From an uncultured Chloroflexota bacterium (GTDB taxonomy: Bacteria > Chloroflexota > Chloroflexia > Thermomicrobiales > CFX8), in assembly GCA_937870985.1 (NCBI GenBank), contig CALMXF010000276.1, positions 1-32,800 of the forward strand: 32,800 bases of DNA. Direction: 5' to 3'. How positions within the stretch are numbered: position 1 is the stretch's first letter; each line of letters opens with the position of its first letter. A program made the position numbers and the translations under genes. Below the pieces are notes generated by a model. That model worked only from the letters and a program-made list of their open reading frames with translations. It did no database searches and was not told the DNA's origin. Positions 18,118 through 30,611 of this stretch are shown here, piece by piece.

Positions 18118-18191
18118 TCTGTTGATAGGCGGCCATCGGAGCTGACGCGACGTTGGCCGGGGTACTCATGCTCGAGGGAGGAGAAGTGGAC

Positions 18192-21100
18192 GTGGATGCA
18201 TCGATGCCAGGCTCGATGACGTGGCGTCTGGTCGGGCCGTTCCGCGGTGGGCGCGTTGTCGCAGTCGCCGGCCACCCGACGGAAGTTGGCACGTTCTATT
18301 TCGGCGCGTGTGCTGGCGGTGTCTGGAAGACGACGAATGCCGGCGATTACTGGGAGAACATCTCCGACGGGTACTTCAACACCGCCGCCGTTGGCGCGAT
18401 TGCCGTTGCGCCGTCCGACCCGAATGTCATCTATGTTGGCATGGGGGAGACGAGCATCCGCGGTGATGTCTCGCACGGCGACGGTGTCTACAGATCGACC
18501 GACGGTGGGCAGACCTGGCGACATGTCGGCCTTCCGGAGACCCAGTCGATTTCGACGATCCGCGTCCATCCGACCGATCCGGATCTGGTCTACGTCGCCG
18601 CGTTCGGGCATGTATGGGGGCCGAATCCGGAGCGGGGTGTCTACCGCTCTCGCGACGGTGGATCGTCGTGGACACAGGTGCTTCACACGAGCGATGGCGC
18701 GGGTGCTATCGACCTGGCGATGGATCCGAACAACCCTCGCGTCCTCTACGCGGCGATGTGGGACGCTCAGCGTTACCCCCATGCCCTACGCTCTGGTGGC
18801 CCGAATAGCGGCATCTTCAAGACGACCGACGGTGGCGATACCTGGCAGGAGTTGACACGTAACCCGGGCCTGCCGACAGGTGTGCTGGGCAAGATCGGAA
18901 TCGCCGCGTCGGCGAAGCCCGGCCGCGTCTGGGCATTGGTCGAGTCGGAAGATGGAGCGCTATTCCGCTCCGACGATGGTGGCGCGAACTGGCAGCGCGT
19001 CTGTGATCAGGGCGACCTGCGTCGCCGTGCCTGGTACTACACGCATATCGTCGCTGACCCGCAGGATGGCGACACGGTCTATATCCTCAATCTGAAGTTC
19101 TGGAAGTCGATCGACGGCGGAAAGACATTCACCGCGATCCCGACCCAGCATGGTGACAACCAGGATCTGTGGATCGACCCGGCGGATCCGCGCCGGATGA
19201 TCGAGGGCAACGACGGCGGCGCGAACGTGTCGTTCAACGGCGGCGCGACATGGTCGACGATCTACAACCAGCCGACCGGGCAGTTCTATCACGTGACTAC
19301 CGACGATCGGACACCGTACCGACTGTACGGATCCCAGCAGGACAACACGGCCTTCTCGCTCCCCAGCTCGTCGCTACGCGGCGCAATAACCGCCGCGGAG
19401 TACTTCGAGCCAGGCGGCGGCGAGTCCGGCTATATCGCGATCAAGCCGGATGACAACAACATCGTCTACGGTGGCGCGATCGGGTCGGGCGCTGGCCACG
19501 GCCGGCTACTGCGCTTCGATCAGCGGACGAACGAGATTCGGATCGTTACCGTCTGGCCGGAAGTCCACGGAATGGGCCGCGGCGCGGAGGCGCTGAAGTA
19601 CCGTTTCCAGTGGACGTTTCCCATCTCATTCTCTCCGCACGATCCGAATACGCTCTATGTGACCTCGAATGTCGTCCACCGCACGCGCGACGAAGGCATG
19701 AGCTGGGAGGTCATCTCCCCCGACCTGTCCCATAACGACCCGGAGACGCTGAAACCCTCCGGTGGACCGATCACCCGCGACAACACCGGCGCGGAGGCAT
19801 ACGGCACGATCTTCGCGTTCTTCGAATCGCCGCATGAGCCGGGTGTCTTCTGGGCCGGCTCGGACGATGGCCGGCTGCACATCTCTCGCGATGGCGGCGA
19901 GTCATGGGACGAGGTTTCGATCCCGACAAGCCAACTCCCCGATCGCCCGATGATCTCGGTGATGGAGCCATCGCCACACGACCGATCGACGGTCTATGTC
20001 GCCGCGACACGATACAAGCACGATGACTTCGCGCCGTATCTGTTCAAGACAGCCGACGACGGCAAGACCTGGACGAAGATCACGACCGGCATCCCTGACG
20101 GTGAGTTCACCCGTGTGATTCGCGAAGATCCGAATCGCATGGGCCTGCTCTACGCCGGGACCGAAACCGGTGTGTATGTCTCGTTCGACGATGGCGCGAG
20201 CTGGCAGCGATTCCAGTCGAATCTGCCGGTTGTGCCGGTCTACGATCTGATGATCAAGGGGACTGATCTCCTCGCGGCGACGCATGGGCGCTCGTTCTGG
20301 ATCCTCGACGATCTATCACCGTTACACCAGATGGACGCTGCGACTGCTGACGAGAAGGTCGTCCTGTTTGCTCCTCGAACGGCGAAGCGGATCAAGGTCT
20401 ACGGTCGTCTCGGCGATCCGTCGGCAGATGCCTACAGCTACGGGCGAGCCGGCGGTATGCCGATGACGACGCGACAACGGCCAGGGGCTGGTGGCGGCGT
20501 CGAAACTGAGTATGTTGACGCCGGCAAGAACCCTCCGGACGGCGCGATCATCCACTACTGGTTGAAGGATGCGTCGAAAACCGCCACGTTGACAATTAAG
20601 GACGCCGACGGTCAGACGATTCGGACGTTTGCCAGTGATGAACCAGGTTCCGGCGCGTCTCGACTGGTCCCCTCAGCCGGGATGAACAAGTTCGTCTGGG
20701 ATCTTCGCATTCCGCCCGCGAAGGCGATCTCGGGGATCGATTCGTCATTCACGTCTGGTATTCAGCCCGATGCGCTTCTGGGGCCCGTCGTCGTGCCCGG
20801 CCAGTACTCGGTCGAGCTGGACGTTGATGGGACCACGCGCCAGCAGGTGCTTCTCATTGAAGCCGATCCACGGGTCAGTGGCAATCAGCAGGATCTCGAA
20901 GCGCAATATGATCTCCTGTTGAAGATCCGGGACAAGCTTGCCGAGACCCATGCGGCAATCGACCGAATTCACACGATTCGAACGCAGGTCCGTGACTGGC
21001 TGACGCGGATCGATGATGAGACCGTCACGAACGCTGGCAGGGCGTTGCTTGACAAGCTCGCGGGGGTCGAAGAGACGCTGGCGCAGCCGAAGGCGAGTGA

Positions 21101-21323
21101 TCCGCGCCAGTTTCCCAGCGGCCTCAACGACAAGCTCGCCGCGTTGCCGGGGATGATCTCCAACTCCGATACGCGCCCACCGAAGCAGTACTACGAGGTG
21201 TTCGACAAGGTCTCGGGAGAGGTCGATCAGCAACGAGCAGCGCTCGATGGGATCGTCGACGCGGAGGTCCGGGCGTTCAACGCCTTGATCTCCGGCATGC
21301 AGACCGACGCCGTGATTCTGTAG
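18192..21323 (+). CDS. BNR/VPS10 (sortilin-like) repeat protein, first paralogue
   Basis: This 1,043-aa protein is a beta-propeller of the BNR/Asp-box type, often annotated as glycosyl hydrolase or sortilin-like. About ten Asp-box motifs (SxDxGxTW) are visible, for example STDGGQTW, SRDGGSSW, TTDGGDTW, SDDGGANW and SRDGGESW, spread over about residues 80-690. The family's opening WRLVGPFRGGRVVAV is present. After ILDDLSPLHQM comes a beta-sandwich-like region, then a helical tail (LLLKIRDKLAETHAAIDRI). There is no signal peptide, although homologues are usually exported. The GTG at 18192 is set by GGAGGAG eight bases upstream; the ATG at 18168 and TTG at 18153 are alternatives. No catalytic glycosidase residues can be assigned, so a binding or scaffold role is equally possible. 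A close paralogue follows in tandem. Confidence 0.85.
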   Translation: MDASMPGSMTWRLVGPFRGGRVVAVAGHPTEVGTFYFGACAGGVWKTTNAGDYWENISDGYFNTAAVGAIAVAPSDPNVIYVGMGETSIRGDVSHGDGVYRSTDGGQTWRHVGLPETQSISTIRVHPTDPDLVYVAAFGHVWGPNPERGVYRSRDGGSSWTQVLHTSDGAGAIDLAMDPNNPRVLYAAMWDAQRYPHALRSGGPNSGIFKTTDGGDTWQELTRNPGLPTGVLGKIGIAASAKPGRVWALVESEDGALFRSDDGGANWQRVCDQGDLRRRAWYYTHIVADPQDGDTVYILNLKFWKSIDGGKTFTAIPTQHGDNQDLWIDPADPRRMIEGNDGGANVSFNGGATWSTIYNQPTGQFYHVTTDDRTPYRLYGSQQDNTAFSLPSSSLRGAITAAEYFEPGGGESGYIAIKPDDNNIVYGGAIGSGAGHGRLLRFDQRTNEIRIVTVWPEVHGMGRGAEALKYRFQWTFPISFSPHDPNTLYVTSNVVHRTRDEGMSWEVISPDLSHNDPETLKPSGGPITRDNTGAEAYGTIFAFFESPHEPGVFWAGSDDGRLHISRDGGESWDEVSIPTSQLPDRPMISVMEPSPHDRSTVYVAATRYKHDDFAPYLFKTADDGKTWTKITTGIPDGEFTRVIREDPNRMGLLYAGTETGVYVSFDDGASWQRFQSNLPVVPVYDLMIKGTDLLAATHGRSFWILDDLSPLHQMDAATADEKVVLFAPRTAKRIKVYGRLGDPSADAYSYGRAGGMPMTTRQRPGAGGGVETEYVDAGKNPPDGAIIHYWLKDASKTATLTIKDADGQTIRTFASDEPGSGASRLVPSAGMNKFVWDLRIPPAKAISGIDSSFTSGIQPDALLGPVVVPGQYSVELDVDGTTRQQVLLIEADPRVSGNQQDLEAQYDLLLKIRDKLAETHAAIDRIHTIRTQVRDWLTRIDDETVTNAGRALLDKLAGVEETLAQPKASDPRQFPSGLNDKLAALPGMISNSDTRPPKQYYEVFDKVSGEVDQQRAALDGIVDAEVRAFNALISGMQTDAVIL

Positions 21324-21451
21324 GGTTGAGGCCGCCGGGCTGCTGAACGCGGTCAGGTGGGCAGCCTGGCGATTGTATTGCGAACGACGCCAACTGAGAG
21401 CGAACCACTGGGGCTCGTTCGATGCTGGTGGCTGAACTAGGAGGCATGGGA

Positions 21452-24400
21452 ATGACTGCAGGAGCCACGTCCGCGAAGGATGTGAGCGGGAGCCTGTTGG
21501 GTTCACTGGATTGGCGGCTCATCGGGCCGTTCCGCGGTGGGCGCGTCGTCGCTGTCACCGGAGTTGTGTCGGATCGGGAGACGTACTATTTCGGCGCAGT
21601 CGCTGGCGGGGTCTGGAAGACGACTGACGGTGGCGTTGTCTGGCGCAACGTGTCTGACGGCCAGTTCAACACGGGGGCTGTCGGCGCGATTGCCGTCTCG
21701 GTATCGGACCCGAACGTCATCTACGCCGGCACCGGAGAGACGAGCATTCGTGGCGACGTCTCGCACGGAGATGGCGTTTACAAATCCACCGATGGCGGCA
21801 AGACCTGGGCGAACGTTGGCCTGTCCGACACCCGCCACATCGGCCGCATCCGCATTCACCCGACGAACCCGGATGTCGTCTACGTCGCGGCGCTGGGCCA
21901 CACCTGGGGGCAGAATGAGGAGCGCGGCGTCTTCCGCACGACCGACGGTGGGAAGAGCTGGCAGAAGGTGCTCTACAAGAGCGACCGAGCTGGTTCGCAC
22001 GACCTCTGGCTGGATCCGTCTAACCCGCGCGTTCTCTATGCCGCGATCTGGCAAGCGCAGCGCTTCCCGAACGCGCTGTCGTCTGGCGGCGAGGATTCGG
22101 GCATCTGGAAGTCCGTCGATGGCGGCGATACCTGGGTCGAGCTGACGCGCAAGCCGGGCCTGCCAACCGACGCCGTGCTGGGCAAGATCGGCATTGCCGG
22201 GTCGCCAGCGCAGCCGGACCGCGTCTGGGCGTTGATTGAGGCGGTCAACGGTGGCCTGTTCCGCTCGGACGATGGTGGCGAGACCTGGGAGAAGGTCAAC
22301 ACCGAGGCGAAGCTGCGAACGCGTGCGTGGTACTACATGCACATGATCCCGGATCCGCGCGACCCGAACACCGTCTATGTGTTGAACTACAATTTCTGGA
22401 AGTCGATCGACGGCGGGAAGACGTTCACCGAGATCCCCTCTCGCCACGGCGACGAGCAGGACCTCTGGATCGACCCTGACGACACGCAACGGATGATCAA
22501 GGGCGACGACGGCGGCGGTTGTGTCACCTATAACGGCGGCCGGAGCTGGTCGTCGATCATGAATCAGCCGACGGCGCAGCTCTATCACGTCACCACTGAC
22601 AATGCCTATCCGTTCCGGATCTACGCCTCGCAGCAGGACAACTCGGCGGTGAGCATTCCGAGCGCGACGGTCAATGGGACGATCCACGAGCGAGACTCGT
22701 ATACGCCCGGCGGCGGCGAGTCCGGCTATATCGCTCTGAAGCCGAGCGACCCTGACATCATCGTCGCGGGCGGCATCGGATCGGGAAACTTCAATGGCCG
22801 CCTCATCAAGTACAACCACCGCACCGGCCAGTGGAAGAACATCACCGTCTGGCCAGACCTGGCCGGCATGGGGTCGGGCGCTGGGAGCCTGAAGTACCGC
22901 TTCCAGTGGACCTACCCGATCTTCTACTCGCGTCACGAAGTGGACACACTCTATGTCGCCGGCAACCGGATCTTCCGCTCGACCGACGACGGAATGACCT
23001 GGGAGATCGTTTCCGACGACATCACCCGCAACGACCCCTCGAAGTTGGGACCGTCCGGCGGGCCGATCACGAAAGACAACACCGGCGCCGAGGCGTACTG
23101 CACGATCTTCGCGCTGGCCGAGTCCCCTCAGGAGCCCAACACGCTATGGGCCGGCACCGACGATGGGTTGGTCAAGATCAGCAAGGATCGCGGCAAGACC
23201 TGGGAGGACATCACCCCGCCGGCCCTGCCCGAGTGGGCGCTGATCTCGATCATCGACCCGTCCGAGCACCACGCTGGGACCGCCTACGTCGCCGCGACAC
23301 GCTACAAGTCGGACGATACGACGCCGTATCTGTTCAAGACCAGCGACTACGGCAAGACCTGGACGACGATCACCAACGGCATTCCATCCACCGATTTCAC
23401 CCGCACGATCCGCGAGGACAAGGCCCAGCAAGGGCTGCTGTATGCCGGAACCGAAACAGGCGCCTACGTCTCATTCGATGACGGCGCAAACTGGCAGCGT
23501 CTGGGTGGCAACTTCCCGGTCGCGCCGGTTTATGACCTCATCATCAAGGGGCACAGCCTCGTGGTCGCGACTCACGGCCGCTCGATCTGGATGCTCGACG
23601 ACTTGACGCCTCTGCGCCAGATGGCTTCTGGACGAACCGGCAATGGCGTGACGCTCTTCGAGCTGCCGTCGAAGGTTCGCTTCAATCCTGTCATCGGGTT
23701 CGGTGGATCGCCCCAGAAGGGGTACGTTTCCTACCACGCGGCGAGCACCAGCCACGTGTCCTACGAACAGGTCGAGCAACCCGACGGCACGATGAAGAAT
23801 GTCTACGTCGACGCTGCCGCCAACCCATACGACGGGGTGATCGTCTCCTACTACCTGCCCGAAGCGGCAAAGCAGTCTGCGGATCTTGCCGTTGTCGACA
23901 ACCAGGGGAATACCGTTCGGTCATTCACCACGAAGGTGGCCGACGCCTCGTCAGAAGAGAGCGCTGCCAGTGGCCAGAAGGTGCCGGCTGCCGCGGGGGT
24001 GAATCGTTTCCATTGGGATATGCGCTACGAGCCGGCGGCGACGCTCGAGGGTCAGGAACTCGCCGATTGGGATAAGCCAGTCGGGCCGAAGGCGCTGCCC
24101 GGCAGCTATACCGTGCGGCTGACGATCGATGGCGCGACGCACGAGCAGCCGCTGGAGATCGTCCCCGACCCACGTCTGGATACCCCGGCCGAGGCGCTTC
24201 AGGAGCAGCTCGATCTACTGCTGAAGATCCGCGACCGGCTGAGCGATACGAACCGTGCAGTCTCGCGCGTGCGGAAGGTTCGCACGCAGGTCGAGGACTG
24301 GGAGAAGCGCGTCAAGGACAGCGACGCGGCTGAGTCGGTGCAGGCCGCCGGCAAGGACGCGCGCGAGGCCCTGACCGCGATCGAGACCGAGCTGGTCGAC

Positions 24401-24634
24401 ACGACCACTGATAGTCCGTTGATGGCGCCATCCCGGCTCTTCGAGAAGCTGAACGCCCTCACCGAGTTCGTCTCTCTCGCCGAGGGTGCGCCGGCGAAGC
24501 AGGGCTACGAGGTCTTCGACGAGCTTTCGACGCGCCTCGACGACCTTCTCGAGACGCTCGACGGCGTCATCAGCAGCAAGGTCCGCGTATTCAACGAAGC
24601 GATCTCGGCTGCCAAGCTCCCGCCGGTCGGATAG
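21452..24634 (+). CDS. BNR/VPS10 (sortilin-like) repeat protein, second paralogue
   Basis: This 1,060-aa protein has the same architecture as its upstream neighbour and is closely similar over its whole length, for example VGAIAVSVSDPNVIYAGTGE and ETSIRGDVSHGDGVYKSTDG against near-identical stretches there. About eleven Asp-box motifs are present (STDGGKTW, TTDGGKSW, SVDGGDTW, SDDGGETW, STDDGMTW, SKDRGKTW and others). The tail again ends in a helical segment (LLLKIRDRLSDTNRAVSRV). The ATG at 21452 lies seven bases after AGGAGG; an ATG two codons earlier is too close. No signal peptide is seen. The 128-base gap to the first gene and the shared strand suggest a duplicated, co-regulated pair. 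A strong hairpin follows the stop. Substrate or partner unknown. Confidence 0.86.
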   Translation: MTAGATSAKDVSGSLLGSLDWRLIGPFRGGRVVAVTGVVSDRETYYFGAVAGGVWKTTDGGVVWRNVSDGQFNTGAVGAIAVSVSDPNVIYAGTGETSIRGDVSHGDGVYKSTDGGKTWANVGLSDTRHIGRIRIHPTNPDVVYVAALGHTWGQNEERGVFRTTDGGKSWQKVLYKSDRAGSHDLWLDPSNPRVLYAAIWQAQRFPNALSSGGEDSGIWKSVDGGDTWVELTRKPGLPTDAVLGKIGIAGSPAQPDRVWALIEAVNGGLFRSDDGGETWEKVNTEAKLRTRAWYYMHMIPDPRDPNTVYVLNYNFWKSIDGGKTFTEIPSRHGDEQDLWIDPDDTQRMIKGDDGGGCVTYNGGRSWSSIMNQPTAQLYHVTTDNAYPFRIYASQQDNSAVSIPSATVNGTIHERDSYTPGGGESGYIALKPSDPDIIVAGGIGSGNFNGRLIKYNHRTGQWKNITVWPDLAGMGSGAGSLKYRFQWTYPIFYSRHEVDTLYVAGNRIFRSTDDGMTWEIVSDDITRNDPSKLGPSGGPITKDNTGAEAYCTIFALAESPQEPNTLWAGTDDGLVKISKDRGKTWEDITPPALPEWALISIIDPSEHHAGTAYVAATRYKSDDTTPYLFKTSDYGKTWTTITNGIPSTDFTRTIREDKAQQGLLYAGTETGAYVSFDDGANWQRLGGNFPVAPVYDLIIKGHSLVVATHGRSIWMLDDLTPLRQMASGRTGNGVTLFELPSKVRFNPVIGFGGSPQKGYVSYHAASTSHVSYEQVEQPDGTMKNVYVDAAANPYDGVIVSYYLPEAAKQSADLAVVDNQGNTVRSFTTKVADASSEESAASGQKVPAAAGVNRFHWDMRYEPAATLEGQELADWDKPVGPKALPGSYTVRLTIDGATHEQPLEIVPDPRLDTPAEALQEQLDLLLKIRDRLSDTNRAVSRVRKVRTQVEDWEKRVKDSDAAESVQAAGKDAREALTAIETELVDTTTDSPLMAPSRLFEKLNALTEFVSLAEGAPAKQGYEVFDELSTRLDDLLETLDGVISSKVRVFNEAISAAKLPPVG

Positions 24635-28113: not shown

Positions 28114-29511
28114 TCAACCCATGACTGGCACGACCTCCGGTGGTCGCTTGCCCTGCCATGGTCCATCACGCTCTACGACTCTCGCCGCCCGGAAAACGAG
28201 CGATTCCAGCCACGGCCGAGCCGCGATCTGGATAGCCACTGGTAGATCGCCCTCGCCGAGGCCGACCGGCACGACCATCGCCGGCCAGCCCAGCGCATTG
28301 AACGGCCCGGTGAAGCGTGTGTTGCTCTGGACGACGCCGAGCGGCGGTGCTTCATGCGGCATGCCGGGCGTTACCAACAGATCCACGCCGCTCACCCGCT
28401 CCACGATCCGCGAGCGAAGAATCGTGCGGGCCTGTTCGACCCGCACGAACGCGGTCGGCGAGTAGGCGTAGGCAACCAGCATCCGGTCGCGGACGAAATC
28501 GTCAAGGTCGCCGAGGCGATGTCGAAGGTAGTGCTCATAAGCGGCCGCCGCTTCGATCGTCACAATCGTCCCGTACAGCGCGGACAGATCAGCGAGCTCG
28601 GGGATCGCAATCTCGACAATGTCGGCGCCAGCTGCCGCCAGCGCAGCGACGCCATTGCTCACGCCCTGGACGACGGCCGGCGTCCCCAGTGAGCCCATCC
28701 CGTCGTCTGTCAGCACGCCGATACGAAGTCGCGCAATCCCACGCTCGACGGCTGCCGGGTAGTCGTCAACTGGCACTCTGCGCGTGCGCGGGTCGCCCGG
28801 GTCGAATCCGGCCAGGATCTTGAGCATTGTCGCTGCGTCCGCGACGCTCCGCGTCATCGGGCCGACATGGTCCAGCGACCACGACAATGTTGCTGTGCCG
28901 CGTCCACTCACTCGCCCGAACGTCGGCTTGATCCCGGTGATGCCGCAAAGCGTCGAGGGCATGCGGATCGAGCCGCCGGTGTCCGAGCCGATTGCGCCGA
29001 GCACCAGTCCGGTCGCGACGGCCGCGCCAGAGCCGCTGCTGGATCCACCAGCATCGTGCGAGTAGTCCCACGGGTTCGGCACCGGGCCGTAGTGGGAGTT
29101 GTTCGAGCCTGGCGAGAACGCGAACTCGGGCATGCTCGTCTTGCCGACGATCACTGCGCCCGCTTCATCGAGCAGCCGCACGACTTCGCTATCCTCGGCG
29201 GCGATCGCGTCGGCCAGAACCTTCGAGCCGGCGGGTGTTGTCTCGCCGCGCATGTCTGCCAGGTCTTTGATCGCGATCGGGATGCCGTGCAACGGGCCGC
29301 GATAATTCCCACGTCGGATTTCGTCGGCTGCCGTCCGCGCCTGCGCGAGCGCGCGATCAGGCGTGGTTGTCCGAAACGCGTTGAGGATGGGATTCGCTGC
29401 CCCGATCCTCGCGAGCGAGAGCTCGGCCAACTCGACGGGAGAGATTTCGCCCGAGCGGATGAGCGGCCCGACTTCGGCGATCGACCGATGAAGGATCGAC
29501 GCATCAGCCAT
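28114..29511 (-). CDS. Amidase (amidase signature family)
   Basis: This complete 465-aa amidase has the Ser-cisSer-Lys triad with exact GatA spacing: K82 (AIKDLADMRG), S157 in AGGSSSGSGAAVA and nucleophile S181 in SDTGGSIRMPS. It would hydrolyse an amide and release ammonia. The ATG start lies inside the end of the preceding small gene, overlapping it by eight bases, so translation is coupled. That small helical protein resembles the GatC/AtzG accessory subunits that pair with amidases such as AtzE. No GatB is present, so tRNA amidation is unlikely as the main role. It is the last gene of a four-gene unit with a methyltransferase and a sulfurtransferase. The substrate is unknown. Confidence 0.92.
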   Translation of the reverse strand: MADASILHRSIAEVGPLIRSGEISPVELAELSLARIGAANPILNAFRTTTPDRALAQARTAADEIRRGNYRGPLHGIPIAIKDLADMRGETTPAGSKVLADAIAAEDSEVVRLLDEAGAVIVGKTSMPEFAFSPGSNNSHYGPVPNPWDYSHDAGGSSSGSGAAVATGLVLGAIGSDTGGSIRMPSTLCGITGIKPTFGRVSGRGTATLSWSLDHVGPMTRSVADAATMLKILAGFDPGDPRTRRVPVDDYPAAVERGIARLRIGVLTDDGMGSLGTPAVVQGVSNGVAALAAAGADIVEIAIPELADLSALYGTIVTIEAAAAYEHYLRHRLGDLDDFVRDRMLVAYAYSPTAFVRVEQARTILRSRIVERVSGVDLLVTPGMPHEAPPLGVVQSNTRFTGPFNALGWPAMVVPVGLGEGDLPVAIQIAARPWLESLVFRAARVVERDGPWQGKRPPEVVPVMG

Positions 29512-29728
29512 GGTGCGTCTCCCCCGTCGTCGTTGTCACGAGGTCCAGATAGTCGGGTATCTCGACTCCGGTGACGATGCGATCGATCATCTCCTCGACG
29601 GTCAGTGCGCGGCTGAGAAAGCCTCGCTCGGCGGTTCGCTCGATATCCTCGTCGGAGAGCTGTATGCCGGCCGCACGGGTTGCGACCTTCCAGCGCTCGA
29701 TCATTGCTCGTTCACGCTCGCTTGCCAT
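29504..29728 (-). CDS. Small AtzG/GatC-like amidase partner
   Basis: This 74-aa soluble, mostly helical protein opens MASERERAMIERWKVATRAA and contains LSDEDIERTAERGFLSRALT near residues 23-42, with an acidic, hydrophobic-patterned C-terminus. Size, helical character and its coupled position directly before an amidase match the small accessory subunits (GatC, AtzG and DUF4089-type proteins) that wrap around amidases. Sequence similarity to any one of them is not strong by eye, so the assignment rests mainly on context. Its ATG overlaps the final stop of the rhodanese frame as TGATG, and GGAGGTG lies just upstream; its own stop overlaps the amidase ATG. Confidence 0.65.
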   Translation of the reverse strand: MASERERAMIERWKVATRAAGIQLSDEDIERTAERGFLSRALTVEEMIDRIVTGVEIPDYLDLVTTTTGETHHG

Positions 29729-30585
29729 CACACCTCCGTGTTGTCGGGCCGGGCTATCGGGGTGTCGTCCCGGTTCCCCCACTCGCCGAACGACCGGTCG
29801 TAGGTTGCGATCTTCTCATACCCAAGCAGGGCGAGCACGTAGACTCCGTGCGCCGCACGGATGCCACTTTGTCAATAGGGGACGACTGCCTTGCCGCGCG
29901 TGATCCCATTCGATTCCAGAAGCGTGGCAATCTCCAGCGCGGGCTTGAATCGCGCCGACGCTTCCCAGTCGACGAAATGCTTCCACTCAAGGTGCACCGC
30001 ACCCGGGATGTACCCTTCGCGCTGATTCCGAACGGTTTCCGGAGTGCCGGCCCATTCCAGATCGGTGCGCATATCGAGCGTGGCGAAATCGTCATTACCT
30101 AGGCGCGGCAGGATCACGTCACAGTCGGCGATACGGTCTCCGACCGGTTGCGCCACGAAATCTCCTGCCACCGGCTCACCCCACGCATGCTCGACCGGGT
30201 TGCCCTCGGCGGCCCACGATATCCAGCCGCCATTCAGCAGCGCGGCATTCTCGAAGCCGTAGTACCAGAGCACCCACCAACAGCGCGCGGCCAGTACGCC
30301 GCCTTGCGAGTCGTAGCAGACGACTCTCCGGCCATCGCCAACACCAAGGCCGCCAAGGATCATGGTCGCCTGATCCGGAGGAAGGACACCGACGTTGGTG
30401 TGAATATCACGCAGGTAGGGGTGGATCGGCAGCGGAACAGCGCCGGGGATGTGAGGCCGAACGGCCCGCACATCGGCGTCGTCACAGTCGATGATCAGGA
30501 GATCGGTGTCTCCCAGATGTGCCGCCAGCCAGGCGGGCTCGACGATCAGATCGGGACATGGATATTGCCGGGGGGGATGGGTCAC
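29728..30585 (-). CDS. Rhodanese-family sulfurtransferase with in-frame TGA (probable selenocysteine 238)
   Basis: This two-domain thiosulfate/3-mercaptopyruvate-type sulfurtransferase is 285 aa if the TGA at 29872-29874 is read through. Domain 1 (about residues 12-125) has the inactive-site segment VVCYDSQGGVLAARCWWVLW and the LLNGGWISW turn. Domain 2 has EGYIPGAVHLEWKHFVDWE, then KAVVPY, the TGA (codon 238), and QSGIRAAHGVYVLALLGYEK followed by FGEWGNRDD. The TGA falls exactly on the catalytic cysteine of the CxxGxR loop. A conventional annotation stops there and loses the active site. The frame continues 47 codons to a TGA that overlaps the next gene's ATG (TGATG). A SECIS-like hairpin follows codon 238. 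The GTG start has GGAGGT six bases upstream. It lies 26 bases after the methyltransferase gene. A recent nonsense mutation is the alternative. Confidence 0.82.
29839..29874 (-). promoter_or_regulatory. UGA codon plus bacterial SECIS-like hairpin
   Basis: Reading the minus strand, the UGA (29874-29872) is followed by CAAA. A four-base lower stem then pairs 29867-29864 (GUGG) with 29842-29839 (CUAC, one G-U). After a two-by-two internal loop comes a seven-base perfect upper stem: UCCGUGC (29861-29855) with GCACGGA (29851-29845). The apical loop is GGC (29854-29852), so a guanine opens it, and it begins 17 bases after the UGA. E. coli fdhF has its loop about 18 bases after the UGA with GG at the loop start. 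The structure lies wholly within conserved rhodanese codons. Confidence 0.75.
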
Positions 30586-30611
30586 GAGATTACCTCCGGG
30601 TCGTGCCGTCG

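Follow-up and report, generated by a model that had tools for sequence, protein, structure and literature searches.

Bacterial SECIS elements and rhodanese-related selenoproteins

Rhodanese-related sulfurtransferases of the COG2897/SseA kind, with a UxxG motif and a predicted SECIS, were described as selenoproteins in the Sargasso Sea data in 2005 (PMC1088965) and in the GOS data (PMC2398784), and rhodanese-related sulfurtransferases are among the selenoproteins listed since (PMC9312934, PMC13188914). Detection of bacterial SECIS elements relies on a structural model, bSECISearch, in which a stem of 4-16 bp carries a loop of 3-9 nt, the spacing between the UGA and the loop is 16-37 nt, G is present in the first two loop positions and is often followed by G or U, and the minimum free energy is at or below -7.5 kcal/mol (PMC13188914). 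The SECIS elements of different bacterial genes seldom resemble one another (PMC13188914).

The rhodanese gene considered here lies in a stretch of 32,800 nucleotides from an uncultured Chloroflexota bacterium, which is referred to as the window. Its protein is like the Sargasso Sea and GOS members in that it is a COG2897 rhodanese carrying a predicted Sec in place of the catalytic Cys and a UxxG motif, with a predicted SECIS directly after the UGA and many Cys homologues. It differs from them in coming from a family of Chloroflexota metagenome-assembled genomes, and the likeness is one of published description. The window hairpin agrees with the bacterial model throughout, with a loop of 3 nt (GGC), a stem of 7 bp, a spacing of 17 nt, and a free energy of -9.9 kcal/mol for the 17-nt hairpin alone.

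In the SECIS of Escherichia coli fdhF, the apical hairpin lies ∼17-18 nt past the UGA and the loop contains a G. The window hairpin, compared with it by general description, shares the distance to the apical hairpin and the loop G, but has a GGC triloop in place of a larger GU-containing loop and is without the bulged U in the stem. In contrast with bacterial SECIS elements in general, the rhodanese element has a primary sequence that is unusually invariant across more than 120 genes among the matches listed. The selenoprotein family has been known since 2005; what is added here is the comparative proof, the near-invariant sequence, and a gap concerning tRNA-Sec.

The window gene and its hairpin

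The gene, its in-frame UGA, and the parts of the hairpin are located as follows.

29728..30585, minus strand: gene for a two-domain rhodanese/sulfurtransferase selenoprotein of 285 amino acids, with a GTG start and a TGA stop at 29730-29728
29872..29874, minus strand: in-frame UGA for putative Sec residue 238, which takes the place of the catalytic Cys in rhodanese domain 2 (Y-U-Q-S-G-I-R)
30592..30597, minus strand: probable ribosome-binding site GGAGGT, read from the sequence, 6 nt 5′ of the GTG start (30585)
29845..29861, minus strand: upper stem-loop of the predicted SECIS, UCCGUGC-GGC-GCACGGA
29852..29854, minus strand: apical triloop GGC
29864..29867, minus strand: 5′ arm of a lower stem
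29839..29842, minus strand: 3′ arm of the lower stem

The Pfam family PF00581 is matched in each half of the protein, indicating tandem domains, and the best NCBIfam model is that of 3-mercaptopyruvate sulfurtransferase, with a score under its cut-off. The active-site Cys of the solved rhodaneses 1e0c and 1uar aligns with the UGA codon, past which rhodanese homology runs on for 48 codons up to the normal C-terminus. In a protein search across the order (61 genomes), all five genomes belonging to the family of the window genome proved to carry TGA at that position of the gene. With tandem rhodanese domains, U at the catalytic Cys, and UxxG in the form U-Q-S-G, the protein has the features of a rhodanese-related selenoprotein, and the product would act as a (per)sulfur or (per)selenide transferase.

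With the U of the UGA numbered 0, the sequence of the transcript is UGA CAA AGU GGC AUC CGU GCG GCG CAC GGA GUC UAC. The upper stem consists of seven perfect pairs (29861-29855 with 29851-29845) and includes the conserved core CCGUGC-GGC-GCACGG, whereas the lower stem, GUGG/CUAC, consists of 4 bp (29867-29864 with 29842-29839). The 7-bp upper stem of the original prediction is confirmed, as are its GGC loop and the distance of 17 nt from the UGA. An Rfam scan of the window matched no family. The fold of the 60 nt after the UGA has an energy of -22.7 kcal/mol (z -1.42), with 12 of 200 shuffles equally stable, and a stem of at least 5 bp arises in 3% of synonymous-codon draws weighted by the usage of these genes. 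Folding of a single sequence was rejected as evidence of a SECIS, given a z of only -1.42 and the overlap in fold energies between UGA-type and Cys-type genes.

As one sequence is weak evidence, relatives were gathered, and the strength of the case rests on their comparison. When 84,980 species genomes were scanned for a pattern that fixed the TGA and the amino acids and left third codon positions free, at least 119 stretches were obtained among the matches listed, mostly from Chloroflexota/Dehalococcoidia/SAR202 but also from Binatota and a few other lineages. One UGA-type relative (L112), with the motif YUQGG, belongs to Candidatus Lucifugimonas marina JH1073, for which the genome is complete. 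The matching Cys pattern, applied to 400 genomes of the phylum, found 19 Cys-type sites in 17 genomes. The comparison set comprises 125 UGA-type genes among the matches listed (hereafter the 125 listed genes) and 27 Cys-type relatives. More divergent UGA types are absent from the set because the pattern fixed Q/H-x-G-x-R-A-x-H, and, since related sequences are not independent, there were fewer events than the raw counts suggest. At three loci (L096, L140, and L157), two UGA-type rhodanese genes from two subfamilies lie close together.

Sec machinery and the missing tRNA-Sec

The window genome (G000) harbors selA, selB, and selD on contigs C159, C68, and C257, each above curated cut-offs. Its selB carries SelB-wing_2 and wing_3, which are the SECIS-binding parts of SelB. 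The selD gene (L199, G000:C257) has an in-frame UGA of its own, in the context ASCAG-U-AAKLAPG, and an 8-bp hairpin stem capped by a GGC triloop 20 nt 3′ of that UGA. UGA-type selD is also present in G003-G006; of these, only G003 and G005 clearly show the same register. Both genomes of the genus, G000 and its congener G005, contain selA, the UGA-containing selD, and the UGA-type rhodanese gene. The contig that carries selB also carries a T-box leader-like RNA (L053:11927-12204, minus strand) at 71 bits, below gathering.

The gene for tRNA-Sec was not found in G000 (89% complete) or G005 (96% complete) by Rfam at two thresholds, by blastn with a relative's gene, by an anticodon-arm pattern allowing two mismatches, or by ARAGORN on the tRNA-like matches. 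One candidate (L257), a 29-bit match at a contig edge, was uncalled by ARAGORN and was set aside; the remaining matches were other tRNAs. Three sister genera (G003, G004, and G006) have tRNA-Sec, each matching the G003 query at 98-100% identity, and the gene is present in all 12 other UGA-type genomes of the phylum sample. The two assemblies of the genus are drafts of 447 and 150 contigs, and the plainest reading is that tRNA-Sec possibly fell into an assembly gap in both.

Two other accounts of this gap are unlikely. In the first, the genus decodes UGA with a tRNA-Sec too divergent for Rfam, blastn, and ARAGORN, or with another tRNA, and SelB reads the sequence of the hairpin core and not only its shape, which would be why the core is kept letter for letter. 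In the second, the hairpin is an ancestral SECIS in a genus that has since lost tRNA-Sec, and the gene is a relic or is otherwise decoded. Such a loss would agree with the failure to detect tRNA-Sec in both genomes while sister genera carry near-identical copies, but the core is unaltered at its synonymous sites, selA, selB, and selD are likewise intact, and drafts in so many contigs can miss one gene.

The missing tRNA-Sec also lends something to the view that the UGA is a real stop, in a pseudogene, through a sequencing error, or at the end of a truncated protein. This is highly improbable, however, as UGA occupies the same codon in the 125 listed genes, which come from many assemblies and in which the downstream protein is conserved. 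Truncation would moreover cut off the catalytic loop, in a genome where selA, selB, and selD are present.

Conservation of the stem in UGA-type and Cys-type genes

The stem is under purifying selection in genes with UGA at the catalytic position and is missing from those with Cys. The inner 5 bp form in 124 of the 125 listed genes, within the codons for the conserved rhodanese loop, as had been proposed. To the question of whether Cys-type homologues share the stem, the answer is that none of the 27 does, including two Cys groups nested in UGA-type clades. Among the 125 listed genes, nt 17 is U in 124, nt 20 and nt 23 are G in 125 each, and nt 26 is C in 122, while the same bases occur in 5, 8, 9, and 17 of the 27 Cys-type genes, respectively. 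The loop is GGC in 118 of the listed genes and GUC in the other seven; a guanine at the loop start, which the original prediction had claimed as a mark of a SECIS, is therefore present in all 125, followed by G or U.

The outermost pair of the upper stem, U-A at 13-29, is present in 97 of the 125 listed genes. The lower stem had been predicted as well and does form in the window, but it is not conserved across the same 125 genes, with pairing at 10-32 in 70, at 8-34 in 36, and at 7-35 in 74, and position 9-33 is merely an invariant G facing U or C. The lower stem is probably not part of the signal.

The codons of the hairpin are frozen, whereas the third positions of flanking codons for fixed residues (Gly before, Leu after) vary freely. 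Within the stem, free third positions are fixed at whichever base completes the pair. Arg in the stem is encoded by CGT in 124 of the 125 listed genes, although this codon accounts for 9.8% of those used for Arg in the rest of the same ORFs, and the core is retained in UGA-type ORFs with a G+C content of 26-29%. Base composition or codon bias is thereby excluded as the cause. In synonymous redraws, no more than 9 of 125 sequences had a 5-bp stem, compared with the 124 observed among the listed genes.

Covariation and Sec/Cys switches

The inner pairs hardly vary because the protein fixes one side of each. The sixth pair, 14-28, can vary since nt 14 is a third codon position and nt 28 is the second base of a Gly, Ala, or Val codon. 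Compensatory change, the comparative check that had been suggested for the hairpin, is seen at this pair: the 125 listed genes comprise 112 with C-G, four with G-C, four with A-U, and five in which the pair is broken. The residues behind these states are mostly Ile-Gly for C-G, Val/Met-Ala for G-C, and Ile-Val for A-U. The pair is formed in 120 of the 125 listed genes, above the shuffle maximum of 113. On the protein tree, both sides of the pair change in six of seven independent contrasts, with none in the opposite direction (p 0.03). Of 400 genomes sampled evenly across the phylum, 13 have the UGA type, all 13 with the core, and in that sample the predicted C28 is present in four of four genes with G14, three of which are new. 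The rhodanese genes thus show the comparative pattern of a SECIS, with a stem in Sec-type genes, its absence in Cys-type genes, and compensatory change at 14-28.

The protein tree needs four switches between Sec and Cys, and a sign test of stem against UGA is non-significant, four switches being too few. One UGA-type gene (L156, identical to L277, G196:C50) lies within a Cys-type clade and has the same SECIS core, in which pair 14-28 is G-C. The genome that encodes it also contains tRNA-Sec. An AU test argues against placing this gene with the other UGA types (p 0.016), a result to be read with caution as the branch is longish, and an independent Cys-to-Sec change or recombination is possible. 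In the opposite arrangement, two Cys groups are nested in UGA clades (L224/L225 and L226-L228), and the stem is lost in both. Among the five genomes behind these Cys genes, a real tRNA-Sec is present only in that of L228.

These comparisons bear on the possibility that the protein motif GIRAAHG together with high G+C produced the stem as a side effect, which is very improbable. It is true that the protein fixes half of each pair (for example, Ala GC with His CA), that the single-sequence fold lies within chance, and that Cys-type stretches fold with similar energies. Nevertheless, the third positions were left unconstrained by the search pattern and are fixed in UGA types but variable in Cys types, and the near-universal rare CGT, the persistence of the core at low G+C, the compensatory changes at 14-28, and the distribution of the stem between the listed UGA-type genes and the Cys-type genes all contradict such an origin. 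A genome-wide reassignment of UGA to Trp (codes 4/25) with an incidental hairpin is rejected as next to impossible: it would account for two genes with in-frame UGA, but relatives have Cys and not Trp at the site, the rhodanese gene itself stops at UGA, and the anticodons of the tRNA-Trp found are CCA.

Proposed decoding, neighboring genes, and significance

The hairpin can be taken with high confidence as a bacterial SECIS, very probably a functional one, which would direct Sec insertion at 29874-29872. The absence of the stem from all 27 Cys-type genes, the covariation, the fixed third positions, and the agreement with the constraints of the published model support this interpretation. When a ribosome reaches the UGA, SelB loaded with Sec-tRNA would use its C-terminal winged-helix domains to bind the GGC-capped hairpin and would deliver Sec, and translation would run on to the stop at 29730-29728. 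The outcome would be a two-domain rhodanese of 285 amino acids in which Sec replaces the catalytic Cys.

Two further genes lie downstream on the same strand.

29504..29728, minus strand: small ORF of 74 amino acids, with an ATG overlapping the rhodanese stop (TGATG)
28114-29511, minus strand: AtzE-like amidase, overlapping the 74-amino acid ORF

The small ORF is likely co-translated with the rhodanese. The congener G005 has a similar small ORF 3′ of its rhodanese gene, and an amidase also adjoins the rhodanese gene in G003. The arrangement suggests that the rhodanese, the small ORF, and the amidase form an operon. Elsewhere in the window, 18153-21323 and 21422-24634 (plus strand) encode two neighboring long paralogs, each some 1060 amino acids in length, the first of which has a sub-cut-off match to a glycosylhydrolase model.

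A hairpin initially read by eye is now a comparatively well-proven SECIS. It represents an RNA signal inside a conserved catalytic loop, in which each free third base serves to pair with one that the protein dictates. The set of UGA-type and Cys-type genes, with their mutual nesting, provides a natural experiment on the gain and loss of SECIS elements in Sec genes.
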